Source of the DNA: Pythium myriotylum | Taxonomy: Eukaryota; Oomycota; Peronosporomycetes; Pythiales; Pythiaceae | Direction of reading: 5' to 3' | Length of the DNA stretch: 64,000 nucleotides | Assembly: GCA_023091665.1 (NCBI GenBank) | Contig: JALJCQ010000030.1 | Location: 436,501-500,500, forward strand | Shown here: piece by piece, positions 27,114 through 55,525 of the stretch | Numbering within the stretch: position 1 is the stretch's first letter | Layout: every line of letters starts with the position of its first letter | Position numbers and translations under genes: made by a program | The notes under the pieces: model-generated | What the model was told of the DNA's origin: nothing | The model's database searches: none | The model's input: only the letters and a program-made list of their open reading frames with translations

Positions 27114-28069
27114 CCACCCCCCACCCAAAATGAGGAACACCCTTGTCCCTACTTTAGGAACAGCCGTGTCCTAGAAAAGGAACACGAGCCTATTCCAGTA
27201 CGGAATTTCCGAGGACCCACACGGAAATGGGTACAGACTCATGGCGACCATGAGCGCGAAGTCGCGTGTCGATTTTTCGACAACGACTGATCGAGAGCCG
27301 CAGCGGCTTGGCGCAACACCTCGCTGCGTCATGAGACGCATGCAGACGTGCGCGCGGTCGCCAGCGACCACTGGATCATGACGATCCCCCAAAACTGGGC
27401 CATTTTGCCGTCTGACGGCGGCAAGCCAAAATGGCATGGTCAGACGACCATTGCGAGACGAGCAGAGCTCGCGGCAAGCCCAAACTTGGCACACACTCTC
27501 AGTGCGATGGGTTCTTGCCTTGTGCAAGCGTACAGACCTGTACGATGCGAACTCGCAAACTTCGTCTCTTGACGGTGCCCAGAACTGGGTCCAGTCCAAT
27601 ACTGGAGACTGTGGTCGGTGGGTATCCACCGCGAGTACTACCAAGTACTCGAGAGGCTGGCTAGCCTCATCCAGCGACTCAACTGAGTGCGTGGAGTGCG
27701 GGGATACCCGTGGCAGTCGGACAACGACGTTGCCGGGCAACTTCGTGTTGTCGGCCACACGCTCGGGCGTGATGGCTACACCGCAGAGAACTGCTCGGTG
27801 TAGCAACACCAGACTGAGCCAGCCACTCTGGCTTGGTGCGAGCGTTGTCCAACGCAACCGATGAGGTCGGTGGACGTTGTCGAAGCTTCGACTGCGCCGA
27901 ACGCGGCGTTCTCGCCATCTTCATGGCCTTCTGCTTGGGTCTTGTACCCATGTCTATAATAGACAGGGACAGTCGACTTGACTGAGACGGACCGTCCGTG
28001 TGCTCCACTGAGCGTCTTCCTTGAGGAACTTGAGACACTTCTCATCTTGATGGAGGTGGTCGGTCCCAC
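27114..28069 (-). other. X-A region between pol and the 3' LTR
   Basis: About 950 bp downstream of the pol stop. A 228-codon minus-strand frame (27171-27857) exists but has no family signature and lacks clear protein character; it is repeated identically in X-B. I treat it as probable noncoding 3' sequence. Confidence 0.5.
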
Positions 28070-31000: not shown

Positions 31001-32640
31001 GTCGAGAGAACTGAATTTCTTCGCGCCGGACATCCGGTGGATGATCACATCCTTCCGAGGGATCGGAGTAGACGCGGGAATCGTCTGTGCGTTTAACTTG
31101 TTGTACGCGTGGACGATCCTCCACTTGCCATTTGGCTTGCGCACACAGAACGTTGGTGCGCTGTGCGGCGAGACGCTCTCGCGCACCAGGCCAGCCTTGG
31201 CTTTCTTGGCAAAGAATTCATCAATGAAGTCCGATTGTTCGGCCGGCAGAGCCCACTGGCGAACCGTCGCATAGCTCGAGCCAGGCTTGAGCTTGATCTC
31301 GTGGCGAACACCACGATCAGGGGGCAACCCCGCCGGCGGGTTCTTGCTGAGGCAAGTCTCCGCAAACCGCTTGACTAGCGGATAGAACCGATCCTTCGGA
31401 TTCTTAAGGATGGCCGAACCACGGCGCGCGTCAAACTTCTGACGAAACTCAACGAGGACATCCTCGTCAATCACCGTCGAGGTGTTGAGTTCAGCGAGGT
31501 CTCGCTCAGATCGGAGGATCACAACCTCAGCGATCTCACCAGCCTTGAGCTCGCGGACGAAATCGTCCATAGGGAGTTCCTCCAAGCTAGTCAGCTCGGA
31601 GAACTCGGGCAACGGTGCCATATCGACCGTGGACGGATCGATCGACGATCCCGTCATCACATCGACGATGTGCACGTCATACGACGCGTCCGAGAGCGGG
31701 AGTGGCTCAGGCCCGGGCTCGGTCGTATCCGACGACCCTGAGAGCGGCTCGACCGCACGCGGACACGCGACAAGGGGACACATCCCCGAAGCATCTTCCA
31801 TGCTGGTACTCGGAGGGGGCGGAGACAACTCGACGCCCTCTTCTACGCCGTACTTCACGGCAGACGGCACGACCGTCTCCGGAACACCCGAGGTGTCCAT
31901 GGCGTTCACTACGCCAATGAAGTAGGCACTTCCATCTTCTTTGATGGGGCTCATCAGCCGGCGGACGAAGGAGGGTTCATGACGCTCCTGAGCTCCGTTC
32001 CTGCCGGGAGACGTGCTTCCAATCGACTTGGTCCTCCAATCGATCCATGGCTCGTGGCGCTCGAGCCACGGCATACCGAGGATGAGGTCAAACCTCTCAT
32101 CCATGTCGAGCACTGTAAAGCGCTCGACTGAGTCGAAATCGACAAACGCAATGCGTAAATCGACCTCGATCTTCTTCGTCTCTGCGACGATGCCCGTCGC
32201 AAGACGCACCGAGACTCTTCCAGATCTCGCTCACAAGCTTGAGCAAACAGAGAAGCATTCTCAGCAATACTTTGCTTGCGACCGTAATTGCGCGTCGCAC
32301 CAGAGTCGATTAGGACTCTGAAGGGACGTGCAAATCCCTTCACTTGAGCAGTGACGACGATGAGCTCGCCACTGATGCGCAGCTCATCAACTTCTGAGAA
32401 GAGATCTTCTTCCGGGGGCACCCCGCCTTGCGATACTGCCGAACTCGGCGTCGCGGAGCGAGGAGTGATCGCCCCAGTAGACTGCCCCGCGTCTACTGGG
32501 AACTCTCGTTTCCCTGCGACGTGGAAGCAGATCCACCTCGGTTTCCCGAGCGCCGCGGCCGACCACGGCGAGCACGACCACCGCCCCTCTTGCGCGGACA
32601 ATTCCGCTGGAAGTGACCGAACTTCCCACAAGTAGAACAC
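28070..32640 (-). pseudogene. X-A pol: protease, RT, RNase H, integrase, chromodomain (frameshift + TGA)
   Basis: Starts overlapping gag in the -1 register. The protease site VLIDSGATRN is in the 32640 frame. The frame then moves near 32210 by about one lost base, inside the protease. The frame from 32209 carries LILGMPWL, RT with YFDD, RNase H (VVCDASDYAIG), and the integrase zinc region with the first Asp (MDFFFG). TGA at 29366-29368 follows. After the stop the same frame resumes with the second Asp (VSDRDPRFT) and the catalytic Glu (QTERAN), and ends with a chromodomain (YHVESLDSVR...LLVKWLGY). Both lesions are shared with X-B. Confidence 0.9.
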
Positions 32641-33629
32641 TTGATGTGAAGAGCCTTCACGTCGATCGCACGCAAGTCGACCGTGCTGAGATCGACTCCA
32701 CTGAGGTCGATGACACTCAGGTCCATCGGTTCGATGACCGGTGGTGGAACCGGCGTGACCGGAGGCGGCGCAGCCGGACTCGCGGATAAACCGCGCGAGA
32801 GACGCTGGACGTAGTCCTCCCGCAGCGCGACGACGAACGCGTCTTCTAGGAGCATGGGCTCCTCGCGGAAAACCGCAGCCTTCTCAGGACCGGGATCCAT
32901 CCCTTCCATGAACGTCGTCAGCATGACGTCTTCTGCGAGCGCATTCGCAGCCATGTTGGCCCGGAGTTGACGTAACTCCTGCACATACGTGTGCAGCTCG
33001 CGGCCACCTTGCCGACAAGCGAGAAACGCAGCTCGCTGGCGATGCGCCACATTTGGCGGTTGAAACATCGACTTCATCGCCTTGGCAAGCGTTGCCCAGT
33101 CGGAAAAACATCCGGGATGCGACGTCTCGCACGTGAGGGCCCAGATCTTCGCCCGGCCTGTCATGTTCGAGATCGCAAAGGCGATCTTCTGCCGTTCATC
33201 ACGGATGCAGCCGGCTGCTGTGACGAGCTCGATCTCGCGTTGCCAGAAGGCAAGATTGTCGCTCTCTTCACCCGAATACGGGGACACCGTAATCTTCACG
33301 GCCTTCGGACGTTCCGGAGGTGCCGGCGATGGCACATACGTAGCCGTCGACGGCACCTGAGCTGGCTGAGTAGCCTGAGTCGCGGACACGCGGGACGTCA
33401 CGACGTCGAGAAGATACTTCTCGAGAGCTGTCACGTAGTCGCGAAAACGCGCGACATGGACGAGGACTTCGCCGGAGCCGCGTCGGAGCAGCTCGATGAC
33501 ACTTGCACGGCCATTGATGGCCTCCATCTTCTGGAGATAGGCCCACTGGGCCTCATCCAGGTACGGATGGTCTTGACGCGACAGCGTCGGATGGCTTGAC
33601 GCCATCACGAAGTCGGAAGCTTCGGACAT
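32493..33629 (-). CDS. X-A gag
   Basis: 378 aa, intact. Capsid-type region in the middle (LAFWQREIELVTAAG, TYVQELRQLRANM). Then a stretch of D-L-S/D-L-R repeats, one zinc knuckle CSTCGKFGHFQRNC, and a basic Gly/Arg tail. Starts about 40 bp inside the 5' LTR. Confidence 0.9.
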   Translation of the reverse strand: MSEASDFVMASSHPTLSRQDHPYLDEAQWAYLQKMEAINGRASVIELLRRGSGEVLVHVARFRDYVTALEKYLLDVVTSRVSATQATQPAQVPSTATYVPSPAPPERPKAVKITVSPYSGEESDNLAFWQREIELVTAAGCIRDERQKIAFAISNMTGRAKIWALTCETSHPGCFSDWATLAKAMKSMFQPPNVAHRQRAAFLACRQGGRELHTYVQELRQLRANMAANALAEDVMLTTFMEGMDPGPEKAAVFREEPMLLEDAFVVALREDYVQRLSRGLSASPAAPPPVTPVPPPVIEPMDLSVIDLSGVDLSTVDLRAIDVKALHIKCSTCGKFGHFQRNCPRKRGGGRARRGRPRRSGNRGGSASTSQGNESSQ

Positions 33630-33668
33630 AACGATGTCGGCGTCGGATTGACGACAAGTGCTACCAAG

Positions 33669-33971
33669 TGTAACGGTCCACGACCGTGCACAGCACCTGC
33701 GCTTGAGGAAGCGTGAGCAGCCGCTCCGAGTCGACCCCTGTCGACGAGCGCCAAGGACTTGGCAAAAGGCGAACTGATTGTATTCAGATTATTCCCCTGG
33801 GGAATAATCCCCCCTATACCTGATATCCCTGGTATCTAATACCCAGGGATATCCCCTACTGAATCTAATAAAAGAGAGTCACTACTTAGGGTAACTTTTC
33901 CCCTAAGTGGACCACACACATTATGTACCTACACAACCTAACCTACTTGTGTAACCTTGTACCCCGTTACA
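33669..33971 (-). repeat. X-A right LTR (5')
   Basis: 303 bp. A candidate PBS, minus-strand TGGTAGCACTTGTCGTC, lies two bases inside it (33666 downward). The flanking CCAAC at 33972-33976 belongs to element S. Confidence 0.93.
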
Positions 33972-36286
33972 CCAACTTCCGTGTGTTCATAAGCTGACAC
34001 CGAAGGGTCATAGCTATAGGTGCGATCACTGTCATCCTGACTTGGTGATGGACATGGAGTGCGGTATTCTGCCACCCACGGGTCTTTATGAACCACATAA
34101 TCGCCTCGGATAGCATCCAAATCCACCCGCAAAGTGCCGGTATCTGAGGTACTCTCCTCTTCCCCGCTCACAGAAGCCCCTCCACTCAACGAACCTTCCA
34201 GAGGCGTCGCGACTGCCGCAGGAGAGCTGATATCGTCAGTCTTCCTTTCTTCATTGGTTCGACTTTGGTCAATGTGATCCCTCCTAGTGTTGATAACCGC
34301 CTCTGTATCACCGCTGTCTTCCGTGGCGCTAGCTTCGGGCGAGGGTGGTACGACTCGTTCTTCTGCTACTTCACTGCCAGTATTGGGATCGCCCACCGCC
34401 GACGTCCCGGAAGTAGCGTCAAGTATGTCGGCGCCGACACCTTGGGTGATAACCACGTCCTGGCCTTCGCCGTCGACTGCGCCCACAGAAGTCAGACTCC
34501 GATCACTGTCACCTGCTAATACAATGGCGGATGCGCTAGGAACTCGAAGACGATCACTGTCATCTCCCCTTGTTACTTCGGAAATGGTTTCTCCGGGTTC
34601 TCGACCTTCGTCATTGTCTGGGGCAAAATTGATGGCTCCTGAATCTTGTTTGTGATCACTGTCATTCCTGGAAACACCAACCGGATCACTTGTTCCTTGA
34701 TTTTGATCACTGTCAACTGTGGCGCTCTCGTCTGGAACCCCTGTGCCCCGTACCGTGGGGCTCCCAGGCGGGATTAATGCCTCCAGGTCCGGCAGCGCGA
34801 CAGAAGTCTCCGCAACCTCCTCAGATTGCGCTGCCTCAACGAGTATAGCGCCCGGCCCAGAGTCATCGTCTGCAACTGGCTCGGGTCGTCTCAGTCGGTC
34901 TTCGTCATCTTCTCTAACCCCCATCGGTGCTTGATGTCTGGTTGAATTTACGAACAACCTTGGCCGTACCTGTTGTTCGTACACTTGGTTCAAAAATTGT
35001 CGGGTGCAGTTGAATTGTTTCGCTCCATCCCGCACCAACTTGAACTTCGACGTCGCGTTGCGAGCCAAGGCTTCAAATTCTTTCAAATCATCTTCAGTCC
35101 ACACTCAGCACGGGCGGATGTCGGCCCCTTCTTCGATCGTAGCTCTCCTCACCTCATGGAGGTGGTATAAGAAGGATTGATACGGCCGAACCTGGTATCG
35201 TGGCTCTTCTTCGACCATCCGCTGACAAAAGTCACGATAAGCGACTGGAATCCGAAGGTGTGATACATTTGTATAGTCCTTGAGAAGTTCTACCTCCCGG
35301 TTCGTCCACCGCTGTCGTTTCAATCCTTGCGCGGGCGTAGGAGGTGCTTGTTGCTCTAAAAGCGACTGAGCAATTTCTTTCGTCAATATATGCCCTGTTT
35401 CGGCTACAAATACTTCCAGCGCTGAAGTCCAGTCTTCAAATTCTTCGTACAGTTCGTGAAGACGTTCACGATCACTGTCATCCAGCTCCACTCTCCTTGC
35501 GGCTTGAATCGCTGCATCTCGAGTTAGATTAGTGCCGCGCTCTTCATTGAATTTACGGGTCGCAGTGGGCCAGCTCTTCGTCTCGTGGAACAGGATGTTC
35601 AGTCTCTTGCGATCTAAATTGTCCAGCCGAACCGTGCGGGCTGCCGAATCTCCTTCCCTGTTACGCCGTGCGCGAATTACATGAGTGGAATGCGGTTGCC
35701 ACCCTTGTTTCTATGAATAGTCGTTGAACTTGGCCACCAAATCCTTCATCGTCAGCCGCTTGATCTTGGGCCGCAAATTATTCTCCGCTTCCATATCTTT
35801 CCATTTCTCATACTGTCCATTGGCCCACGAGGACCGACGATCTTGAGCGTCCTTCACTCGCACCGTCCTCCTTTGATTGTACGCCGCAGCTTTTTCGCTC
35901 GTGCTTCGTGTGTCGCCCTTAGATTCTTCCTCCTTTTCCTCCTCTTCTTGGTCTTCAGTGTCCGCCGTCCCCAATCGTTGGACGGCTTGTCGTTTCTTAG
36001 GCGGTGATCTCGTGGATCCTTCATTCTCCTCTTCCCCGTCTACTGGCCGATAGGCTCGAGTCCTCTTGACTTTCGACGGAGGCCGTTTCACTTCTTCGTC
36101 TGCATCGTTCGAATCGCTGCTCCCTTCCTCTGCGGCCTCATGCGGTGAGACCACCCGAGTCTTCCTCTTTCCTCGCCTGCTCATGCTTCTTGTGCTGGGC
36201 GCCGGTCTTCTTTTGCTTGCTATCGGCTTCAGCGCGCTGGCGGCTTTCTTCCCGGCCGTTAGTCTCCCTTTCCCGTTCTTGGGCAT
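33972..36286 (-). pseudogene. S ORF3, 5' part: Myb/SANT-like nuclear protein (TAG and TGA inside)
   Basis: One frame from the Met at 36286 (MPKNGKGR) to the X-A edge, broken by TAG at 35711-35713 and TGA at 35105-35107. The N-terminus is strongly basic with NLS-like clusters (KRKTR, KKRQ), then acidic. Two Myb/SANT-like segments follow: one before the TGA (RQRWTNREVELLKDY) and one after it (WTEDDLKEFEALAR). The rest is Ser/Asp-rich and disordered. The remaining coding sequence is 48239-48667. DNA binding by the Myb-like parts is inference. It lies downstream of pol in sense orientation, the usual place for extra retroelement ORFs. Confidence 0.72.
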
Positions 36287-36406
36287 GTTCCTTCCGCGTC
36301 CACCCACCAATGACAGCGTTCGGTATCGTGGTTCTGGCTCGTAGGGTGAGGGGTATTGGTAGGTTGTTCCAATGTTGACTGAGTGACAGTGATCACACAC
36401 TCCCAC

Positions 36407-37602
36407 AAAAGCTTCGTCCTTTTAGCGGTGAGTTTCACCTCGGAGATGACAGTGATTGCAACTGAACCTCACCGATTGATTGTCACCTATCATTCGTACA
36501 ATGTTGATGACAGTGATCGCAGATACTCCTCAACACTCCTCTGCCACTTCAACCTCTGTCACTGAGGGTTACCCCTACTTGAGCGTTTCCGAGAGACTTC
36601 TTTCAATCATCACCGCCTTTTCCCACGCCGCCTTGTGAAAAACGCCGCTTTCTTGACTGACACGCCGTGGGCATTCCTCATTTCCTTTCTTAGACCTTCC
36701 AGTCCTTCCTCTTGCTGACTATATCGACATTGTCGCCGATTACCTCGTATTGCTTGGTGAGTCCCCTAGTGATCCCTTGAGCGTCGCATCTTACGTTTAC
36801 AAAGAGCGTCCTCTTCTTTCACTAGACACTGAAACCTGGGTGTTCACGCTCTCACCGTCGACTCCAAACGATGATAGGGAGGCGTATTCTGCAGCACACC
36901 CCTCCCCTCGGCTCTTGATCTTCTTGTTATCATTCGGTTCTCTCTTCCGCTTCTCGTGATCGTTCTTCGCGGGTACATCTGCAGCTTCATGCCCTTCTGT
37001 GGGGACATTCTTCGCTGGTAAGTCTGGTAGCTTCTCGCCCTTCTATGGGGCGTTCTTCGCTGAACTAGCTGTGATCACACGGCGCGCTTCGCGGATCTTG
37101 AACGTTACCGACATCCGCCAACCTCTTGTTGTGGCGTGATGGGGCTAATTTACTCGTTTCGTTTGAATGGGCTATTCTTCTTATATCTGCGAATCGCCTG
37201 TTCCGAGTTGTAGTTCGTCGTTCTTTGGCGGCGCTTCGACACGCGAAGTGTGCTGCAAGGTCTTCATCCCACTGCCTCCCGTGCAGCACAGCTCACTCCG
37301 AGCGCGTGCGCCGCGCTCTTTGACTCTTTCCCAACTCTTTTCTTCTTCGTTTCGTTTTTGTCTAAGTCACTGATCTCGACTCCTGTCCCGTCTTCGTATT
37401 CTCGTGACAGTGATCGGATACAGGTATGTCGGCCTGAATTTCTCAGACCCCGTTGCCTGGCAATTCCATCATTCTATGCCGCGATGACAGTGATCGTACC
37501 CGTGCATTCCCTAGTATATTAACTCATACTTGGGGTGACAGTGATCGTAGATGTGCTGTCATCGTCAGTTGGTCCATCTTCTGTTCTGGTTGTCCCTGGA
37601 GC
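36407..37602 (-). promoter_or_regulatory. S noncoding region between pol and ORF3
   Basis: About 1.2 kb with no coding frame. Six plus-strand copies of TGACAGTGAT lie in two groups (36384-36517 and 37405-37545). Its position suggests a promoter or other control region for ORF3. Confidence 0.45.
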
Positions 37603-40600
37603 TTATTCGTCTTCCTCCTCACTTTGGCTCTCGTCTCCTTCTGTCGTTTGGGCGGCGAGTGCCCGTCGTTCTCGAGCTCTAGCAAGGTCGTAGTCGTACA
37701 TCAGCGCGGTACAGGATAAATTGTCTTCCGGTTCCCACGTGGGGTCGTCATACCCAAGCCATTTCACCAAATATTCCTTAAGCTGTCGACCGTTCCTTGT
37801 GGTCTGAGTCACCCTGTCATTCAAGATGGCTTCCACCTCGTACTCCCCCTCTTCTTCATTTGGAACCCACGAATCTTCCGGGAGCAGACTCTTGTCTAAC
37901 ACATCGACAATCAAGCTCTCATCCATTTCTTCAACAGGTCGTGCTGCTCGTGATACAAACGGCTTGAGACGCGAAATATGCACGATCGGGAACGCTCGCG
38001 AATTACTATCCAGCATCTTGAGTTTATACGCGACCTCAGACACTCGTTCTTCCACCTCATATGGCCCATGCCAAAGGTGAGCCAATTTCCGCGTCAATCC
38101 TTTTTTCACCAGACTGTGATACAGCCAAACCCATTCCCCACTCTCATACTGCGTCTTCGCCGTGACAGTGTTCACGTCTGCGACCTCTTGGTTATGTAAT
38201 CACGCCCTTTCTTCCATTACCCTACGCTGGATTTCTGCGGCGTGCTGTATAGCGTATTCCTGTGACTTGCACACCTCTTTTCTCCATCCGAACGCGTCTT
38301 GTTCTCTCTTCGAACCATCTTTCGGCGGGATCGTCGCATCAAGCATGGTGCGAGAATGCCACCCATGTACCAAGTAGAAACTGGATTGTTTGAGGTGGAG
38401 AGTCACGCTAGTGTTAAGAGCCAGTTCTAGTCTCGGGACGTAGAGATCCCAATCCCGCTGCTCTGGGTCCTCGATATACAACTTGATAGCTCGAATAACA
38501 GTTTGCACATTTCTCTCTTGTTTACCATTGGCTTGAGGTCGATAAGCCATAGTGGGTCTTTGTTTGTGTTTCATCATCCGGCTAAACCTCCTGAATACTG
38601 AACTCATGAAAGCAGGGTCTCGGTCGTGTCTCAAAACCTCTTGTGCTCCAAACCTTTTGAAGACGTATTCCAGGTAAGCGTCCGCCGTGGCGTCCGTCGT
38701 CGTTCCTGTTACTGGTGCTAGTATGATGAACCCGGAAAATAAACAGGTGAAAAGCAATAATGCCGTGTTTCCTCTTGGCGTCAGTGGCAGAGGTGTGGCA
38801 AAATCCATAGCCACCATTTGGAACGGTCTCTGAGCAATGAGGTTTCCTGGTGACGTTCCTTCATATCTTGGTTTCCCTTTTCCCGTAGCACAATCAACAC
38901 ACGTTGCTACATAATTCTCAGTTGCTGCATACATGCCTTGCCAATGAAACTTGCTTCTCAACTTTTCAAATGTTCTGCCCACCCCTTGGTGAGCTCCAGC
39001 CGACAGACTAACATGATAAGCATGTAGGATGTCTTCTTGCATGATGGCTGGAACCACGAGTCTTGGATCTTTGCTCCGCCCTCGACGTCCTCGTGTAGGG
39101 TGATAATACAACACACCGCGGTGATCCAAAACATACAATTCTGCTTCCCTTGCCAGCTGCAGGAGCCTCTTTCAATGTGTGCGATCACTGTCATGAGACC
39201 GTTCTAAGTCAACTTGGTCATAGGCAGTGGTTAATGTCTCACCCTTCAGAAACTGAATGAGAGGTTTACACCACCTATCCTCCTCTTGGGCCCGTGCTAT
39301 GCGTCGGAAGCGTTCTTTTTGAGCTGCTTCTAGCTCCTCCACCGCGACATGTAAGGGTGTCCATTCGTCGTCTCGGGGGGTATCAACCACAGGTTCTTCT
39401 CTTAAGCTCTGTGCACCGAAATCAAAACCTGCTGGCGTCGGAATTGTTCGTTTCCGCTAACTACGAGTAGCAACGAACACCTCCGGCCTGTGGATCTCGA
39501 CCACGTTGCCTATCGCACCAGATTCCTCTGCTTGCACACTGGTGTTCTGTTCCCTGGTTCCTTTTGGATCAACGATCTCATCCGCTGTACTATAGAGCAA
39601 CTCCGGGAGAGTATTCAGTAATTTCAGTGATTCGCGATCACTGTCATCCCTGATTTCTCCGCCCTTTGCCTCCTTCAGGGCTCGCCGCGTCAGCAGGTCA
39701 GCTGCTTGATTAAACTTTCGCGCAATGTGTAGCAGGTGAACCTTGCTGAATTGTTTGACCAGATCCCGGCAGCGTTCTAGCCAGATCACCAAATTGGGTT
39801 GGTGGCAGCGCAGATCTCCATTCACTTGTCCTACCACAATCCGCGAGTCTCCACATACAATCAGATCCACGAACTTGTGCTTTAGAGCCAGTTCCAGTCC
39901 GCAAATCAACCCTTGATATTCACTGTCATTCACCGTCGAGTCTGGGGTGGCTCCGTATTCCGCTGCTACAACGTCCCAAGTGGGTATGCTCCACAAAACT
40001 GCTCCAAATGATCCGAGCTTCGGTTCCTTTGATCTCACCGCTCCATCGAAAGTCACTACATAGCCGACCGTGGTTCTGGTAAGATTGGGCATGGGTGCGA
40101 TCACTGTCATTGGCCTAGCAATCTTCATGGGTGATATGTCATCTAGCACTTCATCGAGGGCCTCTGGTGGTACAATGGATGCAGCCAGCATACCCACCAA
40201 GGCGCTTGGAGTCTTGTCATTACGTACGATCTTCAATGTCCAGGGCGATAGCAGGGCTCCCCATTGAACGACTCGTCCAGTGAGGCTTTTGGACGTGAAT
40301 ACCCACTTCATGGTGCTGTATCGTGCGTACACAACAATTTCTTGTCCGGCGAATATATCCACTGCAGCATCCAAGGTCTTGAGAAGCGCCAGCACTTCTT
40401 TCTCGGCCAACGTGTACCCTCGTTCATTATCTTGGAATACTTTGCTATAGAATCGCACTGGATGTAACACCCCGTCATGTTCTTGACATACTGCGGATCC
40501 ATACGCCCAAGTGTTGACATATAGTATTAATGACAGTGATCGTTTCCGGTCTAAATGCCGCAATAAAGGCGCGGAGCACAACATCTTCTTCAAATGTTCA

Positions 40601-42735
40601 AATGCCGTCCGAGCATGCTCAAGTTGGGTCCCATCCTGCAACCTAGCATCTGTCAACTCGTAAAGAGCTCCAGCATATGTGGCGAAATTGTTGATGAAGC
40701 GATGATAATAATTGAGACTTCCCAAGAACTTCTGCACACCTTTCATAGTTGTCGGGAATGGCATATCCATCACTGTTTTGAGATTTCTCGGAGCACTACA
40801 GATACCTTCCCTTGACACAATGTGGGAGAGGAATTCCACTGACTTCTTACCGAAAGCACTCTTGGGCAAGCTGATGGAAATCCCCCATTCTCTAAAAGAG
40901 GCAAACAAGGCTCTCAGCATCTGGCACATTTCATCCCAAGTTCTAGCACCGAAATTGATGTCGTCGATATACGAGCGGCGATACAACACGGGTCTAGCAT
41001 CCGCCGGTGCTGCCTCGGCTACGTGAAAAGCATCCTGAGACAGGGGCACATCCGTAGCTTGATCTTCCCCTTGCATATTACCGGCTAAGTCCCGTACTTC
41101 ATCCGGAAGATAGCCAACGAACTTGACATCCTGGCCCTGGCTTCTAAGACATCTGACTGTGGCCCACAAACAATTGTCAATTATTCGTTGATAGATTTGC
41201 GGGGAGTTCTTGAATCCTTGAGGCATTCTTAACCATTCAAAATGTCCAAGTGGACAAATGAAAGCCGTGATGAGTCGTGCTCGCTTGGTCAACGGCACTG
41301 CCCAAAACCCGCTCGCGTTGTCTAAGGAACACATCCACATGACGGATTCAAAGTTGTCTAACAAATCCTCGATGTGGGGCATGGAGTAAACCATCAGCAC
41401 AGTCAATCGATTGACTCGACGATAGTCTACGCACAATCGAATATCAATACCATTCTTTTTGAGGACGACGACAATAGGTGATGCCCAGCTTGAATTCGAG
41501 TGTCTCGCTAACCCTGCACGCAACAACCCACGTAGAAGTTCATACAATTTCCCTAGTAGGTGCGGAGGTAGTCTTCGCGCTTTCTCGTTCACTATTTCGT
41601 TCCCCGTCACCTCAATATCACACACCACACCTTTTGCCGGGGGGGAAAGGGCATTACCCGAGCTGCAAAACTGTCCTTCTTTAAGCACCTCTCGCAGCTG
41701 AGCCAATTCTTCTGGAGTGTTTTCCTCTTCCCCCACATCCGCTGTATCTAGGTCCACTGGAGCTGGGGCTTCGTCACTGAATTCTGGTATTAACGCCAGC
41801 TGTCCTTGCATATCCTCCACCGACATCTCCACACCTTCATGTAAGAACACTTCTTCACCTAACGCATCTTGGTTAATAGTTGACGGGTCCAGTCCCTCAA
41901 TAGTAAAGACGCCGGGAATCACATCTCCGACATGGCAAACTGCAGGGACATTGCTGAAGTCTTGAATTAGAGGCTGCCGTTGAGCTTCTCTGGCTCTTTG
42001 ATATAGATCCGCATACTGAGGGTCACCCAATTCTTGGATGGTCAGCATGGGTACTGGCTCTTCATACGGACAGGCGCATTCCTGCGCCATGAGATCAATC
42101 CGGATCCCGGCCCGAACCATAAAGTCAGTGCCGAGGATGATTAAGGAACGTGCTTCGAACTCGCCGACCCACATCTCCACCGCATATACTAAGTTGGGTC
42201 CCAGCCGAATCTTTACCACGGTCTTCCCTTGAGCCGCTAATGGTGAATCCCCTACCCCATAGAAGTTGCGATCACTGTCAAACCTCCGGACTTTCAGCTT
42301 CAGAGTCTTCACTAAATCGCTATGCACGAGGCTGATGTTAGCCCCCGTATAAAGCAAGAGGGGAGTCTCCTCGTCATTCACTGCGCCCCTCACGAAGACT
42401 TGTATGGGGTCTTCCTGCTCCAGCTGATGATCACTCCACCAACCTCTTCTCTCACCTTCCTGAAGGGATAGCTCCACCGTATCATGTAGGTTCCCTCGCC
42501 CACTCATTTCTTGTCCCACGTATGCATATACAGTCGCTCGTAACCCTTCTTTTTCTGCATTCATGATTTCGTCGAGCACAACATTTGCTTTTTCTTCTAG
42601 TATCTCTTGATCTTCTTCCTCCCGTCTTGATCCTTCATGTATACCCGATATCTGAATTGCTTCATTTCGAGTTTTCGTATGCACACATAGATCACTTCCA
42701 GCGTCCGCCCTTATCACGTCAGATTCGCTGGGCAA
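37603..42735 (-). pseudogene. S pol: protease, RT, dual RNase H, integrase, chromodomain (three stops)
   Basis: A single frame runs from 42735 to 37603, broken by TAG 39457-39459, TGA 39172-39174 and TGA 38200-38202. The protease site reads LLYTGAN: the catalytic Asp is Tyr (codon 42349-42351). RT has LDNASGFW and YIDD. The first RNase H lacks its Asp (LYVNTW). The second has FDGAVRS, SEYQG, CGDSRIV and NQAAD. The integrase has the zinc region, D (MDFATP), D (RHDRDPAF) and E (KQERNV). The chromodomain is at the C-terminus (EVEAILNDRV...YLVKWLGY). The order and motifs match E1 pol, so the two elements are related. Confidence 0.92.
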
Positions 42736-42746
42736 CTGAGGGCGAG

Positions 42747-44947
42747 CTAGTTTAACTGCTCAAACAACTGCTCGGCTGTCACCTCACCACCTCTAACTTG
42801 TTCTCGGAGCTTGAACAAACTATCGAGCAACGTCCGACACACTCGCGTGGGGTGGCCGGTCCGATGACAGTGATTGCATACCTCATTTTTCCAACACTTC
42901 TCCACACTGTGGCCCCGGCGACCACATTCCCCGCAAATGAGAGTCTGAAGTTTGTCGTTTCCGGAGGGATTGGATCTAGACGGCGGAGTTGGGGGTCGTG
43001 GCTTTCGTTCTTCGAACTGAACCCGAGAGGCTGGGGCGGGAGCAGCCTGCGATGGTATGTCGACGGCGTTCACCCTTGGCTTCTCGGACTTCGGCGCTGG
43101 GACGGTTGCTGTGGGTTATTCTTCTTCGCGTTCCTGGCTATCGTAGTCTCATGCTGTATGAGGACTCGCTCGAGTTCCTGCATACTCTTGAAAGGACTAT
43201 AGCGAAGTTGAGTTGGCATAGTCTTTTCGATAGCCGAGTCGAAAAACAACTCGAGGTGCTCACTGAATTCTTTGGGATCTTCTTCATAGTCAATGCCGGC
43301 CTTCAGCGCTGCTGCATTGAGACGGTATAGATAATCAACTGGCTTTTCATCTTGTCACTGGAACGTTTTGAAATAAGAGCGTTGAACTGAAAGAGCATCA
43401 CGACAGTAGCGCTTGTGGAAATGCTTGAGTGTCTTGGTCCAGCTCTTCCTCACTTCCTTTGGCAATTGTTTCCACCAAAACCGAACGGCCCCGCCTAGAT
43501 TATTGACAAACGCCTCAAGCCGCTGTTCTTTTGTCCAGTTGTACAGATTGGCCGCGTAGGTGAAGTTAGCGAGCCAGCGAACGGCTTCCTCCACACTTCT
43601 ATTGCGACCGTCGAACATGCGGAGTTGTACATTCTGGATGACGGCCATTGTAGATCTTTCTGTCGACTTCGTCGCAAACGGGATGTCTTGAGCAAGCAAT
43701 CCCATATCATCCCACTCGTCTTCGTCACCTTCACTGTCTGAAGAGTCGGAAGAGAGGATGTCTTGGACCAAGCGCACCGACTTCTTGTTTCTGACGCGCT
43801 TTTGCTTCTCCGAGCGACTCTCTTCGGCCGCCGAACCGTCGGTGTCGGTATTCCTGCCTCGACCTTCCTTCTTTGAGATTTTCTGGCTGGGTTTGTCCAC
43901 AACCTTAGATCCTTTCGCCACGACTGTCGAATTCTTAGCTTTTCCTTTGGCTCTCTTATGGACCGTCGACTTGACTTCGTCCACCGCGGCTTCTACTTCA
44001 GACATATCCATGGTCTTCAGTGCGTCTAACGCTTCCATGGCAAACTCGGGGCCAATGTCACTGTTGAGCGCAAGCTTGAGAAGAGCGCGCGCCGCAGGAT
44101 CGTCATAGCTCAGCGCCCTCAGCGCCCGAACTGCGTCTTTCACGCCTAGCTGCCCTTCTTCAGCCAATCGGAGCACCGCAGTCGCACCGACTTCAGCATC
44201 CTCCTCGTCTAATATGGCCCATGGATCACCTTCTGGTTTCGTCTTCTTCTTGGTGTTGGGGGTCGAGTCCTGACTGGAGAGTCCGTCGAAGTCGAGGGTC
44301 TTCTGTACGGGCAGAGCTTGGGCGCGTTCTATGGTCTTCTTGAGGCTGGCCTCGACGGTGTTCATAATCGAGTCTCCTTGAGCCGCATCTACCGTCTCTT
44401 GGGTGACCTTCTGCATTTGTTTGGCGTGCGGTCGCGGGGTAAACATAGCATCCTCCATGATCTTGTATACCGCTGGACCGAACTCTGCGCCCTTAGTCTG
44501 ATAATACTTGAGCGAACACTCCCATTCATACTCCGAAACGAGCAATGACGTCATATAGTCGGCATCTGCTAGCAGGGCTTCCGGAGGTACTGTCTTAATC
44601 AACCCAAAGGTATCACGGCGAATTATCTCGTATCCCATCGCTTTGAATACTCGTTCCATAAACTCGATGACCTGATCATAGGTCTCGAAGTGCATGGAGA
44701 GCAACTTCTCACGGTCAAGCACTGAGATGTTTGCATTGGCCCATGATTTTTTCTGGATCCGATAGGCGGAGAACCAGCTGGTCGGATCTGCTGAATGAGT
44801 CGTGATCATCCGGATGAATGTTTCTCGGATCGACACAGCTTCCGAGAACTTGTAGATCTTGTTGGTGTCCAACCGTCCTCCCACGGGTTGGAACGGAAGG
44901 TTGAATACCGGCGCTTCCGACTTGGTCTCTTGTTGTGTTGATGCCAT
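42747..44947 (-). pseudogene. S gag (TGA and one frameshift)
   Basis: Starts at the Met at 44947 (MASTQQETK). TGA at 43355-43357 interrupts the capsid region just before DYLYRLNAA, which aligns with E1 gag. A roughly 1-nt loss near 43110 then moves the frame. The final frame (43073-42747) holds two zinc knuckles, CGECGRRGHSVEKC and CNHCHRTGHPTRVC. One TGACAGTGAT copy (42865) lies exactly in the CNHCH codons. Confidence 0.88.
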
Positions 44948-44978
44948 CGTGCTTGTCTTGGGTTCGGCTTCTAACTCT

Positions 44979-44997
44979 GCTCCTGGCATACGCACCA
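44979..44997 (-). other. S primer-binding site
   Basis: Minus strand TGGTGCGTATGCCAGGAGC, two bases inside the LTR and identical to the E1 site at 22708-22726. Confidence 0.75.
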
Positions 44998-44999
44998 GA

Positions 45000-45954
45000 T
45001 GACGTGTAGTAGGGTCAAAATTCGCAGCTTACTGGCGTATGTGCTGGACTTGACACTTCCCACCGCCTTCGCAGACTTTAGGGAACTTGCTTGGACTTGT
45101 TCCAAACCGGACTTGTGACTCTCAGAACTCTTTGAAGCAAGAGTTAGAGCTTGGAACCCACCACGTATGACTGCCTCACACAGTCCACGGGTAAGCAATC
45201 GCAGCAGCAACGATCTTCAGCACCGAGTCCTCTCCACGTCCACTCAACACTGCAACACCCGTGTACTCTGGGTGGTTGACAGTGATCGCAAACGGGAGCC
45301 TTTCGATACAAACGGGGTCTTGATTGGTTGACAGTGATCACAACCAGCGGAGTTGGACTGAACGAAGCGCCCTTCCCACACTTGGATGTCCCTTCACCTC
45401 AGACCAGACTTGTTGACGCCGGCCGACTTCTCTGAGGTGAAGAGGAAGATCGCTATCGATTCACTTGAGCTTGACTTGGCAAATTGGGGAGTTTTTTACT
45501 TATCGTTTTTCCTACTCTGTGTTTTCCTGAAATGTCGCCTAGGGGGCCCTTCCTTGAGATCTTTTGGTGAAGGGTCGCGATGTCACTATCGACCCTTCCG
45601 GTAGTGACCAACTGGTCACTACCGATGATAATGTCACTATTCAAAGGAGGTCCCTATCCTAGCGGTTTCTGTCCTAAAATATATACTGCAGTAGACTGCA
45701 CTAGAATAAAAAGAACTTAGCTAATTCTTGGGCCGATCGCCGAAGCGCTACTTGAAATGACAGCGATCATAACCACTGCCAAAGACCCGATTCTTGAACA
45801 ACTTCCGATGACAGTGATCGTAACCACTATCAAGGCTGGATCTTCACCGACGATGTACTTGGTACTTCCGGGCTCGGCGGCTGGAGCCTTCGCCGAAATC
45901 GTGGTGAGTCTTGCTACCACTCGTGCCCGGGAAATCGCCAGCCACTACACGTCA
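45000..45954 (-). repeat. S LTR (only copy in the S block)
   Basis: 955 bp, TGACGTGTAGT...ACTACACGTCA. It is flanked on one side by the PBS and on the other by the helicase 3' end and a purine-rich tract (AAAGGGCGGA), so both sides are element-internal, as in a one-LTR circle. It holds three exact TGACAGTGAT copies and one variant. It is nearly identical to the solo LTR at 59732-60692. Confidence 0.9.
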
Positions 45955-48255
45955 TCCGCCCTTTGCGAATCCGCAGACGACGGTGAGCACAAACGCGTGT
46001 GGAGGCGGCGATCCCTCATCTTCCTCTTGGCGTCGTCTGTAGTAGTCGTGTCGTCAATCTGGGGTATCTCCAACTCGAGTTCACTCATGTAGAGGCAATC
46101 CCAGTAAATGTCAGCCTTGAGCGTCGCTCGGTGAGCCAACACAAACAGATAATCCTTGGCTCTAGTCAAGGCCACTAGAGTTCTTGCCTTCTTCTCTGCG
46201 AGGAAACCCAGTCCGCCAACTCGCGTCATCGATACGATGGCTATGTCGGCTTCCCGGCCTTGACAAGAGTCAATTGTAACCACATCAATCTCGAGAGTGG
46301 GGCTCCATCGTCGGCGAGCGTCGTCTAAAACTTCCTGGAGTCGGACACGCTGTTCCGTGTATGGCGTGATAATCAACAACGTCGTTTGACTTTTCTTCGC
46401 TCGCTTGCATTCGCGCATTATCTGGAGCACTAGTTCCAACGTCTTCCACAACTCCACTTGATTCACATACTTGCCACCCCGCTTGTTTCGATTCTGATCT
46501 TCATTTTCACAAGAAATCATAGCTACTCGAGCCCTTCCCATCATTCGAGCTTGATTACTTCGTTCTTCCCTGTCTCCGATCACTGTCATCTCGAAACCCA
46601 CTTGGACAGATTGCAAGTACGGCTCAGAGCGCGGCCCTTTATGGCTGAGCTCGTAATCGTAAAAACCCGCAACCCATGCGCCGATCTGCCGATGACACCG
46701 ATGTTGAGCGGTAAGCGTCACTCCCGGGAACTTCTCATAGAGGTAACTGCAGCCGTGCAGAAAACTCCAGCTCAACTTGTGCCGCTTGTCTCCTTCCTCA
46801 TACCACTCCGCCAGCTCTTCCCGGAACTCGATTCTTCCTGGTAGTTGGTTTGGGTCCCCGATGGGGACGAAAACCCTGGTCGCCGGGCGCATGGAGTGTA
46901 TCACCGAGCATTCGACAGTCTGGGCCGCTTCATCGTTGATCAACAACACACAAGGATAGCTGGATAAATCTTCACGCCCAAATGTTGATGTTGTGCCGAA
47001 CACGACCATAGCTTGATCCAACAGCCGATTCTCATAGGTTCTTATCGCACTCCCGGACTGTTGACATTGATCCAGCAGATATTGCAGATAGTATTGTTGA
47101 TACTTGACCCCCACGTCCTTGGGCATCTCGCCAATCCGCAGAATTCGTGAGGTCGGTACGTGCCCTTCATCTACTACCCGCCGTAGGTCTTCGTCAATAG
47201 CAGTGTTGGTCTCAGAGGTCACAAAAATTCTTGCACGCGGGAACGCCTCAGTGTACACAGCGATAATTCCCGCGATCAATCTGGTCTTCCCACATCCGAA
47301 CGGTCCCCGAATGGGAATGATGCCACGATATAGCACCACCTGGTTCAAAGCGTAAGCTTGATCGAGTGTAAGCTCTCCTTGTCCATCATTTTCTTCTCCA
47401 CACAGTCGCTGGAAATTCTTCCCACTCATGATCAATCGAAGCTCCTTGTCATCACGAATAATGAGCTTGGTGTCTCGGCGCATTAACTTGGACAACAGAG
47501 GCACCTCCGTACAGGCGTCTATCAATCCCTATCAATCCTCGCCAATAGAACAATCCTCGCCAATAGAACCCTTTCTGTTTCCGTGCCACCTTCCAACGGA
47601 TGTCGGCCAGCCAGAAAGCCTGCCCGTCGTAGCGACAGAGCACGGCAAAGTAACGAGTCGCATCTTGGCCTACCGTGTCCAAAGTCCCGAAAGTGGTGGC
47701 TTTGGTCGACTGCACGAAATCGCGATGCACCGAAGATTGTATGTTGGCTCGCCCAGGTACGATCACTGTCATGCAGTCCAGCATGGCTTTTGCATAAGGT
47801 CTCATGCTCGCACGATGGTATCTCTCAAAGTAAGTCGAGGCTGGGCACGGACCAATGATATCAACCCAGAACCTGTCTGGCAGCATCTCACCTCGAGCTT
47901 TCATTTCGCGCAACTCACGACGTCGATCATGTACCTGATGCCTTGCTTGCAGTACGCAGGACAGCACCATAGCGAGCCTGTAGTCGTCCACTGATCGAAA
48001 CTCGTCCATATAAACTCGCTGTTTGGCGTAAAAAGCCCAATGCCGACAGATACTGACCCAATGTACGCCGGGGCTCGTGAAGTCTACCATGAGGCAGCAC
48101 TTCTCCCCGGCGCAGCAATAGCTCGAGGCCTCGGGTTGCCTTCCCCATTTGCGAACTCCGAAGTGGCGCAATAGTAGGGGTTCGAATCTTGCCGGATCAA
48201 TAGCCGCATAGATCATCACACACATTTCAGTCAACCTTCTAAAGCCTTGGTTCAT
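45945..48255 (-). pseudogene. S helicase gene: SF1 (UPF1-like) helicase with an N-terminal extension
   Basis: The upstream frame (48255-47452) and downstream frame (47525-45945) join as one 767-codon ORF once one copy of a 10-bp tandem duplication (47519-47538) is discounted. An adjacent 18-bp in-frame duplication (47533-47568) also occurs. The helicase half has Walker A GPFGCGKT, Walker B NDEAAQ, motif III GDPNQLPG, motif V TIDSCQGREAD and motif VI VALTRAK, a UPF1/SMUBP2-like superfamily 1 set. The N-terminal 250 residues are not recognised. The gene overlaps the ORF3 end by 17 nt and runs a few bases into the LTR. It could unwind element nucleic acid during replication. That is inference. 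Confidence 0.85.
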
Positions 48256-48667
48256 CGAGGAACTCTTGAGGATAGTGATGGGTTTCCATGGACTCGTGGA
48301 TACTGTACGCCCACTCCTTCAGAATTTTCTCATACCTCGTACCTTGGCCCAAGTCGGAGTCCGCTCTCTTCCAGGCCCAATCAATTAGTTCATCACTCGT
48401 CCAGGCCATCGCCTCCTTGTCTTGTACTTGATAGTGGTCGTCCCATCTTAGCAGCTTCACTTCTGCACCCATTGAACGGTTGTATTCGAGGAGATCTTCT
48501 ACTGGGCTAGAATATGATAATGAATGCGGTCGGGGAGCATCCGACGATGCCAGAGCCGACTGCTCCGTAATAGCCGCGGTGGTGTTATCATTCTCCGTCG
48601 TGACTGCATCTTCAGGTGGTTCTGTACCTTCGTCTTCTCTGGGTAGCGTTGCTGCTGGTTCCCCAAC
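48239..48667 (-). pseudogene. S ORF3, 3' part, continuing from 33972
   Basis: The frame is open from the X-B edge to a stop at 48239. Joined to 33972-36286 it completes a 913-codon ORF. This part is acidic and Ser/Thr-rich, then more ordered (WDDHYQ, WTSDELIDWAWKRA). The helicase gene Met at 48255 overlaps its last codons. Confidence 0.75.
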
Positions 48668-48970
48668 TGTAACGGTCCACGACCGTGCACAGCACCTGCG
48701 CTTGAGGAAGCGTGAGCAGCCGCTCCGAGTCGACTCCTGTCGACGAGCGCCAAGGACTTGGCAAAAGGCGAACTGATTGTATTCAGATTATTCCCCTGGG
48801 GAATAATCCCCCCTATACCTGATATCCCTGGTATCTAATACCCAGGGATATCCCCTACTGAATCTAATAAAAGAGAGTCACTACTTAGGGTAACTTTTCC
48901 CCTAAGTGGACCACACACATTATGTACCTACACAACCTAACCTACTTGTGTAACCTTGTACCCCGTTACA
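48668..48970 (-). repeat. X-B left LTR (3')
   Basis: 303 bp, TGTAACGG...CCGTTACA. One substitution from the other three X LTRs near 48735. Confidence 0.93.
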
Positions 48971-49926
48971 CCACCCCCCACCCAAAATGAGGAACACCCT
49001 TGTCCCTACTTTAGGAACAGCCGTGTCCTAGAAAAGGAACACGAGCCTATTCCAGTACGGAATTTCCGAGGACCCACACGGAAATGGGTACAGACTCATG
49101 GCGACCATGAGCGCGAAGTCGCGTGTCGATTTTTCGACAACGACTGATCGAGAGCCGCAGCGGCTTGGCGCAACACCTCGCTGCGTCATGAGACGCATGC
49201 AGACGTGCGCGCGGTCGCCAGCGACCACTGGATCATGACGATCCCCCAAAACTGGGCCATTTTGCCGTCTGACGGCGGCAAGCCAAAATGGCATGGTCAG
49301 ACGACCATTGCGAGACGAGCAGAGCTCGCGGCAAGCCCAAACTTGGCACACACTCTCAGTGCGATGGGTTCTTGCCTTGTGCAAGCGTACAGACCTGTAC
49401 GATGCGAACTCGCAAACTTCGTCTCTTGACGGTGCCCAGAACTGGGTCCAGTCCAATACTGGAGACTGTGGTCGGTGGGTATCCACCGCGAGTACTACCA
49501 AGTACTCGAGAGGCTGGCTAGCCTCATCCAGCGACTCAACTGAGTGCGTGGAGTGCGGGGATACCCGTGGCAGTCGGACAACGACGTTGCCGGGCAACTT
49601 CGTGTTGTCGGCCACACGCTCGGGCGTGATGGCTACACCGCAGAGAACTGCTCGGTGTAGCAACACCAGACTGAGCCAGCCACTCTGGCTTGGTGCGAGC
49701 GTTGTCCAACGCAACCGATGAGGTCGGTGGACGTTGTCGAAGCTTCGACTGCGCCGAACGCGGCGTTCTCGCCATCTTCATGGCCTTCTGCTTGGGTCTT
49801 GTACCCATGTCTATAATAGACAGGGACAGTCGACTTGACTGAGACGGACCGTCCGTGTGCTCCACTGAGCGTCTTCCTTGAGGAACTTGAGACACTTCTC
49901 ATCTTGATGGAGGTGGTCGGTCCCAC
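48971..49926 (-). other. X-B region between pol and the 3' LTR
   Basis: Matches 27114-28069. No convincing gene. Confidence 0.5.
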
Positions 49927-52900
49927 CTACTGGAACCATCCAGGATGATCATGTTCGCATGCGCGAACAAGATCAGAGCAATCTTGCCTGAGAATATTCT
50001 CATCAACCCAGGAGCTCTGGTTGCTTGGATATCCAAGCCACTTAACCAAGAGCTGGCGGACGCCATTGTGCACACGCACACTGTCGAGAGACTCGACGTG
50101 ATAATGGCGTTCGCCATTCCTGTCGATCACAGGCAAAGGAGCGCGCACCTGTCGCAGCGCTTTCCTTCTGGTCTTGACACCAGTGTCGGGGACCCGACGT
50201 GTTCCTTCGGGTTCAGCAAACGTAACCCGACGTCGTATTGACGACGCTGCGGTCGCATTTGACGACCATGTCGAACTTCGACGAGCTTGAGCAAGCCGTG
50301 CAGAGCGTCTTGGCGCTTCGCTGTGTGGGTGAACCACGCCACTTGCAGAACCCTGCACTGCGAGAGAGTCGCTGGAGGAACCATCCGTGACTGGCACGTT
50401 CTCGTGCGCGACTGTGTGTGGTTGCATATCGGCGGCAACTCCGCTTGGAATTGTTTCCGACGACTCTTCGTCTGATGCATCTCCATCAGGGCGGAGATAT
50501 GGCTTGAGCAAGCCGACGTAGAACGTCGGGTGCGTCTGCAACCATGTTGGCAGGTCGACCCTGTAGGAGTTTCCACTCCGCTTCAACACCTTGAACGGGC
50601 CGATATATCTCGGGAGCAGCTTTGAGCTGCCCAAGCTGGACACAGCATTCTGAGACAGGTTCTTCGTGCTAACAAGCACATAGTCGCCTGGCTGGAACAC
50701 GTGCGTGTTCTTCCGGCCGTGTTTGTCGGCTTGTTCCTTCTGAACATCTTGGGCAGCTGCCATCGCGTCACGCACGCGGGTGATGACGTTCACACGTGTC
50801 GACAAGAACTCGTCGATCTTGCGGCGCTCCGCCGACTTGGAAACACCTTCCAACTGGGAGGCAAGTAATTGCCGAGCCCCTCCCTCACCAGACTGGGCAC
50901 TGCCCATGAGACAGAGCGGCAGCGCTGGGTGTCTCAACCCGTTCACGTAGAACGGCGACAGACCTGTCGAGGCATGAACAGAGTTGTTCATGGCGAACTC
51001 CACCATGGGGAGGTGGTCGCACCACGAGAGTGGGTCACTCGCACAATACGAGCGGAGGATATCCTCGACGACGCGGTTGGCGCGCTCGGTCTGACCATCG
51101 GTCTCCGGATGGTCCGTCGTCGACATGTCGAGCCTGGAGCCCAGGATTTGGAAAAGACCTTCCCAGAAATCACCAGTGAACCTGGGATCCCGATCCGATA
51201 CGATTGAGTCGGGGAGACCGTGTCATCGAAACACGGTGTCGACGAAAAGTCGAGCACAGTCGAGACCTGTGCAGGTATCCGAAACCGGAACAAGATGCAC
51301 CATCTTGGACAGACGGTCAACAAAGACCAGCACACCATTGTGCCCAGCGGACGTCTTTGGCATGCCAAAGAAGAAGTCCATGCTCACTGAGCGCCAGCAG
51401 TCGCTGGGGACAGGCAAGCTCTGAAGCGGAGCCTGAGAGTGTGCACTTGGCTTCACTCGTTGACAGACGTCACACGTGCGGACATACCGCGACACCCACT
51501 TGTACATCTTGGGCCACCAAAACCTTGGGCTGAGAAGCGCGTACGTCTTCTCACGGCCAAGATGGCCAGCACCAGGTGCGTCGTGGGCACCATGCGCGAT
51601 CACATATCGCAGGTCGTCGTCTGCAGGAACGACAACGCGAGCTTCTTCGCTGTTCGAGACCTGATATTTCAGGAGGCCGTCTTCGAACGTGTACCGATGG
51701 AGTCGGGCTCGAACACGAGGCGAGAGAGACTTCTCCGAGTCGGACGACTTGAGAGCACGAATGATCTCCGCACATTGTGCGTCGCCTGCGTAGGCGTCAC
51801 GAATCAAGTCGTAGACATCAGAAGCAACTGATGTGAGATGGTTCATCTCGTAGTCGGGACGCCGAGAGAGTGCGTCCGCCAGCACGTTGAGCCGACCCGG
51901 CTTGTACTCAACAGTAAAGTTGTATTCTGAAAAGAATGACAACCAGCGAGCCATTCGCGGCGACAAGTGCGGGGACTGTGTCGCCGTGCGTAGAGACGCA
52001 TGGTCTGTGTAGACCACGAACGGCAACGCGCCGAGAAGGTGAACGCGGAATTTCACCAGGGCGTACTTCATCGCCAACAACTCCTTGTCGTGAACTGGAT
52101 AGTTCTTCTCGGCCGCTTGGAGCTGGCGAGACTGATACGAGATGACTCTCTCGTGACCATCGTGGTCCTTCTGCAGAAGTGCACAGCCGATCGCATAATC
52201 GGAGGCGTCGCAGACGACGCTATACGGAGCGGAGTCATCCGGCAACGCCAGGATCGGCGCTTGGAGGAGACTCTCCTTGATCCTTTGGAAGGCAGCTTCC
52301 GTGCCGTGAGACCACGACCACTCAACGTCATTCTTGAGCAGCTGAGTCAGCGGCCGAGCCATCTCGGCGTAGTTCTTCGTGAACCGGTGCAAGTAGTTGG
52401 CGAGACCCAACCACTTGCGTAGGTCCTTCACGGACCGTGGCGATGGCCACTCGGCGATTGCCTTCACCTTCTCGGGATCCGCCCGAACACCGTCGACTCC
52501 GACGAAACACCCAAGCACTGGGATCTCTTCGGCACCGAAGATACACTTATCCAAGTTGGCATAAAGCTTATGCTCCTCGAGGCATTCGAGAACTTGGCGG
52601 AGGTGATCCTCATGGAGCGTATCCAAATCACGACCGGGCTCCGGCTTCGTGTGGACGTAGATGTCGTCGAAGTACGTCTGTGCGAACGCTCGCAGGGGAC
52701 GGAACAAATGGGTCACCAAGCGATTGAACGTCGCTGGGGCGTTCGACAGCCCCTGTGGCATCACGAGCCACGCCCAGAGCATGCCGCTCGGCGTACTGAC
52801 GGCAGTCTTGGGGATGTCCCCACGCTCCATGAGCACTTGGTAATAACCGTCGACCAAGTCGAGAGAACTGAATTTCTTCGCGCCGGACATCCGGTGGATG

Positions 52901-55486: not shown

Positions 55487-55525
55487 AACGATGTCGGCGT
55501 CGGATTGACGACAAGTGCTACCAAG

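Follow-up and report, generated by a model that had tools for sequence, protein, structure and literature searches.

The oomycete Pythium myriotylum carries, in a 64,000-nucleotide stretch of contig JALJCQ010000030.1 (assembly GCA_023091665.1, positions 436,501 to 500,500 of the forward strand; hereafter the window, whose numbering we use), a long terminal repeat (LTR) retrotransposon, S, that contains one 10-bp word, TGACAGTGAT, many times over. We found 23 exact copies in S (33972–48667, minus strand), spanning 34025–47771, where a third-order Markov model expects 0.084, and 26 on both strands of the whole window, against a mean of 0.23 and a maximum of 2 in 100 window shuffles. An initial annotation, made from the letters of the window alone, had reported the same count and span; its judgement that the word would be rare by chance holds, with the Markov expectation replacing its figure of about 0.03. 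We argue below that such words are family-own marks in the DNA, possibly read by a protein that the element itself encodes.

Element S and its repeated word

Judged by its predicted domains, S is a Gypsy (Metaviridae) element of the chromovirus branch with an extra open reading frame (ORF), ORF3. In the window it is not one continuous element: its order is circularly permuted about an insertion of the Gypsy element G, it has one LTR and it lies between two G copies, and the copy of S at C26:1701155-1731335 joins 33972 to 48667. All of its genes are on the minus strand. The 955-bp LTR (45000–45954) is followed by a gag ORF of 557 amino acids (aa) from stop to stop (43355–45028; its Retrotrans_gag match, E=0.018, is below the Pfam cut-off), a protease–reverse transcriptase–RNase H ORF (39457–42759), an integrase with H2C2 zinc-binding and rve domains (38200–39171) and the C-terminal part of the integrase with a chromodomain (37603–38199), giving the Pfam order RVT_1, RNase H, rve, Chromo. 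A region without ORFs of at least 150 aa (36422–37602) holds five words. ORF3 then begins as an N-terminal fragment, its frame broken in the window (35711–36421), and continues through tryptophan-led (W-led), SANT-like repeats predicted, at low confidence, to be helical (35105–35710), to a last repeat and an acidic linker holding five words read as DSD (33972–35104). Across the G insertion point it resumes from 33972 in a middle part of two overlapping ORFs (47452–48667) and ends in a superfamily 1 (SF1) helicase (AAA_11/AAA_12; 45945–47528) that adjoins the LTR.

The C26 copy has two LTRs that are 99.8% identical, with AACA ending its left flank and beginning its right flank, and its ORF3 reads open in one frame for 1469 aa, meets a TAG and runs for 163 aa more before the LTR. 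The order in ORF3 is W-led repeats, acidic linker, a conserved CCL...CRHW stretch and helicase. Pfam places the helicase (AAA_11, E 8.6e-26; AAA_12, E 1.3e-26) in the SF1 (UPF1/SEN1-like) class, and a protein search with it returned six proteins. P0001 is 45% identical; the other five are at 28–31%, and three of those five carry the name sen1 or senataxin. A search of viral contigs for the DNA of P0001 gave no match. The CCL...CRHW stretch is common to S, P0001 (matches within the first 995 residues being taken as P0001) and a second family, T, and appears in a third, V, as CAL...CRHW. For the repeat array, a protein search among 6806 candidates gave no relative at E<=10. A single-sequence fold model of a 201-residue piece has nine helices (mean pLDDT, the predicted local distance difference test, 55; 105 of 201 residues below pLDDT 50), which are probably three tri-helical units.

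The 23 exact words are divided almost evenly between the strands. Twelve are sense (minus strand: 34025–34034, 34502–34511, 34553–34562, 34655–34664, 34706–34715, 35471–35480, 39184–39193, 39637–39646, 40100–40109, 42271–42280, 46579–46588 and 47762–47771) and 11 antisense (plus strand: 36384–36393, 36447–36456, 36508–36517, 37405–37414, 37485–37494, 37536–37545, 40531–40540, 42865–42874 and, in the LTR, 45277–45286, 45329–45338 and 45809–45818). The LTR words are all antisense, including a one-mismatch site at 45758–45767 (plus strand) that reads TGACAGTGAT in several other copies. Thirteen of the 23 lie inside stop-to-stop ORFs of at least 150 aa, where eight read DSD, three read MTVI and two are antisense, and the other ten lie outside ORFs of that length; the word at 36384, counted inside an ORF, is probably in the leader of ORF3. 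Placement in LTR, noncoding and coding DNA, on both strands and in different frames, is therefore as the initial annotation had described it. Context is also biased (n=23): the preceding base is A in 15, G in 4 and T in 4, and the word is followed by C in 21, then by G in 19 or A in 4, then by C in 12 or T in 7, and then by A in 19.

The word is concentrated in S-derived DNA. It is the top-ranking 10-mer of S, with no unrelated S 10-mer comparable; top 10-mers reach only 2–4 copies in 30 shuffles of S and in the remaining stretches of the window, including G and the right part of another Gypsy element, K (homopolymer-like words excluded and a solo S LTR removed from K). The earlier claim that other elements have none needs one amendment, namely this solo S LTR (59732–60692, plus strand, 99.4% identical), which lies inside a K LTR and adds three exact words (59868–59877, 60348–60357 and 60400–60409) and a one-mismatch word (59919–59928), all on the minus strand. 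Genome-wide, TGACAGTGAT has 254 matches against 77 for the reversed pattern, and TGACAGTGATCR has 136 against 22; by our reading of 100 of these 136 matches, 86 fall in S-derived stretches and 14 elsewhere. Neither of the two outcomes that the initial annotation had named as refuting occurred: density elsewhere is far lower than in S and, as set out next, related copies retain most of the words.

Conservation and spacing of the word

Related copies of S mostly keep the word where it aligns. Excluding the window's own block (solo LTR included), words were kept in 49 of 58 site comparisons with other, related copies, against a mean of 31.9 and a maximum of 44 for random 10-mers in the same alignments (5000 simulations, from which the near-identical C26 copy was also excluded). 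In internal S parts outside C26, nine of ten words were kept against a 10-mer background of 34%.

Two derivatives of about 10 kb each (C30:151824-162009 and C39:228128-238124) show what is kept when proteins are not. Both retain gag (92–93%), have LTR pairs that are 100% identical and have a helicase frame interrupted by stops; tblastn (E<=1e-5) found no match in either to integrase, reverse transcriptase or the ORF3 repeat array, the pol frame being matched in the C39 derivative over no more than its first 42 residues. Exact TGACAGTGATC nevertheless occurs 13 times in the C30 derivative (six in the LTRs, seven internal) and 15 times in the C39 derivative (eight and seven), and five of the internal copies in each are in DNA that cannot be aligned to S. 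Some derivative words sit in 112-bp units that have diverged to 43–65 of 112 positions identical, the word itself intact. Recent movement, loss or decay of the protein genes and retention of the words together argue that the words are cis-acting sites and that the factor using them comes in trans. As a separate observation, the C30 derivative (G000:C30:151814-162019) is flanked by the repeat GGTC and is inserted directly after the apparent end of a T word (CAGTCTGG).

Spacing between neighbouring words is recurrent. Gaps of up to 120 bp in S, counting the one-mismatch LTR site 45758, are 51, 102, 51, 63, 61, 80, 51, 52 and 51 bp, and those in a T copy, counting the one-mismatch sites to its word AAGTGAWCAGTCTGG at 161922 and 170466, are 42, 52, 78, 42, 39, 42, 52, 41, 42, 32, 69 and 42 bp. 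Five of the nine S gaps are 51–52 bp and six of the 12 T gaps are 41–42 bp, with 52 bp also present in T; in all nine S gaps the two words are on one strand. A period of about 10 bp fits the S and T gaps together better than random gaps do (p<0.001 whether the period is set to 10.0 or 10.5). In the DNA that separates the two words of each of the five S pairs at 51–52 bp, only 11–16 of 37 positions match, so the spacing appears to be either kept in itself or the trace of a very old duplication. Spread by local duplication or gene conversion, with no selection on the word, is an explanation that the 112-bp units and the 51-bp spacing bring to mind, and some duplication is suggested by both; that it accounts for the words is very improbable, given words intact in strongly diverged units, the excess conservation in S and likewise in T, and the frozen third codon positions of T described next.

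Words of families T and V, and neighbouring repeats

A helicase search led to family T, with a helicase 33–35% identical to that of S, ORFs of up to 1586 aa and the same ORF layout. Its own over-represented word, AAGTGAWCAGTCTGG, surfaced without being sought and has 379 genome matches against none for the reversed control. One T copy (C12:158198-173832) has 21 listed exact words, all sense, with the same four in each LTR (positions in C12:163001-170270 come from the genome-wide word search). Across 53 comparisons the 15-mer of a T word was unchanged in 42, where 24.9 would be expected and 5000 simulations gave at most 37, and the most diverged T copy (86%) has seven of nine words identical against a background of 18.5%. 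The T ORF is under purifying selection (crude ratio of non-synonymous to synonymous change, pN/pS, 0.12–0.40), and its third codon positions changed in 1 of 150 comparisons inside coding words against 781 of 5839 outside, with six copies, which are not independent, set against one. These frozen third positions are the strongest evidence that nucleotides rather than a peptide are selected. They agree with the presence of S words on both strands and in several frames, their conservation among copies and their persistence in protein-poor derivatives, and the proposal in the initial annotation that the DNA word itself is selected is supported. As a side observation, T ORFs recur about every 21.4 kb at G000:C22:651211-807590, in an array with inverted members.

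Two rivals meet the T data directly. Protein-level repeats would account for the eight S words that read DSD and the five T words that read V[IN]SL, and are an exceedingly improbable cause of the pattern as a whole: other S words read MTVI, are antisense or lie in the LTR, and T words lie in the LTR as well as in coding DNA with frozen third positions. A role in RNA, with Gag or the helicase binding the words as signals for packaging, export or translation, would fit the all-sense words of the C12 copy of T; the near-even strand split in S and its antisense LTR words make it improbable as a general account.

The third family, V, has a 1658-aa ORF at C3, and the T N-terminal repeats match it weakly (25%, E 7.8e-6). 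By eye, we found related words in the V LTR, GAGTTAGCACTCT and GAGTTAACAGTCT, 42 bp apart. The V word pattern has 28 genome matches against 3 reversed, 20 of the 28 in V LTR stretches; the 42-bp pair is present in eight LTR copies, and two further matches may be internal. V therefore lends weak support, to the idea of LTR pairs and not to that of spread through the element. S, T and V words were not cross-present in the nine stretches tested; by eye, AGTGATC is common to the words of S and T, and the T word can be aligned with that of V (AGTGAWCAGTCT / AGTTARCASTCT). The initial annotation had drawn an analogy with VANC anti-silencing proteins, and the different, non-overlapping words of S and T, with the related LTR pair of V, strengthen it.

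These comparisons also bear on two explanations that look to the host. The TGATC part of the S word had been put forward as a modification target, and GATC is indeed present in 21 of the 23 S words; host marking or modification sites (for example for GATC methylation), or small interfering RNA targets, are nonetheless scarcely probable, since GATC is missing from V words and from T words of the AAC form (AAGTGAACAGTCTGG), and a purely harmful mark would not be expected to persist in moving copies. Host transcription factor sites, used by the LTRs as enhancers with the internal copies as extra enhancers, would be in keeping with the word pairs that all three families have in their LTRs. We consider them unlikely: the families of one genome have different words that are not cross-present in the stretches tested, the words are dense inside coding sequence over 14 kb, and matches outside S are few among those listed (14 of 100), whereas a host factor should have targets of its own.

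Other candidates yielded no further family word. GACGGACACG, considered for the third family (three copies in each of two V loci; 248 genome matches against 147 reversed), was rejected; among 100 matches listed, the C3 V locus showed no accumulation other than its three copies. At a fourth helicase locus (C13, L063) we noted a 17-bp palindrome, CGTGTAAAWTTTACACG, with three places in G000:C13:2482040-2482296; it occurs at 86 places genome-wide against none reversed, and the matches listed are often grouped at distances of about 61 and 179 bp. It was set aside as sitting in a short dispersed repeat with recurrent spacings. At locus L046 no convincing word was found.

The repeats around S would account for its permuted form. 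G copy 1 (26811–33971), which has no words, and G copy 2 (48668–55828) are 99.94% identical. Their outer flanks share TCGAT (left of copy 1, right of copy 2) and their inner flanks share CCAAC (right of copy 1, left of copy 2), a pairing that assigns one G insertion to K and the other to S. Positions 26811–55828 could thus be read as a one-LTR circle of S and G, 21,857 bp long, that recombined into K via G; the solo S LTR stands 4 kb from this G–S–G block, within the same K element. Elsewhere in the window, 62246–62487 and 63510–63751 share 242 bp at 95% and look like heat-shock factor (HSF)-type DNA-binding genes, and 1365–2383 and 22728–23746 form a 1019-bp direct repeat (99.8%), possibly the LTRs of another large element with long minus-strand ORFs between them.

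A candidate self-recognition code and known systems

The words co-occur with ORF3, and ORF3 is the obvious candidate reader because S and T have this additional gene in common and V shares its helicase part. The reading we favour, with evenly balanced confidence, is a VANC-like self-recognition, in which the ORF3 protein of an element would bind the words in that element's double-stranded DNA and so activate or de-silence it. The words would mark S as self, with the ORF3 protein, from its N-terminal W-led, probably tri-helical repeats to its SF1 helicase, as the most likely binder. Pairs about four, five or six DNA turns apart may be bound cooperatively on one helix face, in the LTR first and then over the whole element, and bound protein could maintain open chromatin over the element or promote its transcription while the helicase clears silencing complexes or R-loops. 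Non-autonomous relatives would retain words so as to be served in trans, and a protein and word of its own in each family (S, T and probably V) would confine activation to kin.

Several observations weigh against this reading. The Myb/SANT label given to ORF3 in the initial annotation is not significant: the best Pfam Myb match, for one of seven repeats tried, is E=0.16, and Foldseek with the repeat model gave none at E<=0.001, its weak matches including helix-turn-helix proteins. The conservation simulations overstate independence and give no formal probability, because the compared copies are related. When only distinct gaps are counted, the period is less well supported (p 0.006 at 10.0 and 0.07 at 10.5), and some word tracts, in 112-bp units, look like old tandem duplications. 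Spread through the element is not universal, V words being almost confined to the LTR, and for T alone the words could act in RNA, given the all-sense words of the C12 copy. The word at 47762 may be held by protein too, because the peptide MTVIVPG there is common to S and its relative P0001.

More broadly, and with somewhat less than even confidence, we propose that S, T and V represent a lineage of large LTR retrotransposons with a self-recognition code: a family-own word of 11–15 bp in the LTR and genes, in helically spaced direct pairs, by which a self-encoded repeat-array helicase would recognise the DNA of kin alone as self, whether integrated or extrachromosomal. From family to family the words would co-diverge with the protein domains, and protein-poor parasites would copy the word so as to make use of the protein. 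Sequence-specific anti-silencing by a mobile element is well known in one plant DNA-transposon group. If the proposal is true, a like system in LTR retrotransposons, one that includes a helicase and in which families of a single genome have different words, would suggest convergent evolution, would provide a natural series for co-change of a DNA-binding array and its target word, and would explain the continued mobility of protein-poor derivatives.

Parts of this arrangement are known elsewhere. S has the protease–reverse transcriptase–RNase H–integrase–chromodomain order of Gypsy chromoviruses, and differs from them in having, downstream of pol, the additional ORF3 that encodes the W-led repeats and the SF1 helicase. 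Several sites for a DNA-binding protein are also present in the LTR or leader of foamy virus (for the transactivator Tas) and of Drosophila gypsy (for Su(Hw)); those for Tas are few, those for the host protein Su(Hw) form one cluster, and neither set is known to run through genes. In En/Spm, the element-encoded DNA-binding protein TnpA has many 12-bp sites in its own element and is linked to methylation reversal. En/Spm is, however, a DNA transposon whose TnpA sites are known only from its subterminal regions and which is not known to encode a helicase, whereas S and T are LTR retrotransposons with words through their genes and a candidate protein with a helicase. Literature searches found no report joining LTR retrotransposon, additional ORF, Myb and helicase, and none joining Gypsy retrotransposon, SANT and UPF1-like helicase; a search for the word sequences gave no transposon-related title among the matches listed.

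The closest counterpart is the VANC/VANDAL system, VANDALs being Mutator-like DNA transposons whose VANC proteins bind the motif and, when expressed, remove DNA methylation from matching copies. Arabidopsis VANC21 binds YAGTATTAY, which is dense only in VANDAL21, while VANC6 has other motifs (PMC5735166, PMC10398659); the VANC21 motifs form same-orientation arrays thought to stem from tandem repeats (PMC5735166, PMC10398659), and VANC motifs lie mainly in noncoding DNA (PMC5735166). S and T resemble this system in having a dense short motif of their own that differs between related families, same-orientation arrays of tandem-repeat-like origin and an extra element-encoded candidate binder. They are not members of the VANC/VANDAL family: S encodes reverse transcriptase and integrase and is an LTR retrotransposon, not a DNA transposon; its words are also in coding DNA, whereas VANC motifs are mainly noncoding; and S and T have pairs at 42 or 51–52 bp and a candidate protein with an SF1 helicase. 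The word of S, running through genes and control regions, and the different word that T carries in like manner suggest that the DNA of each family is marked as its own, possibly for the DNA-binding helicase protein that the family encodes.

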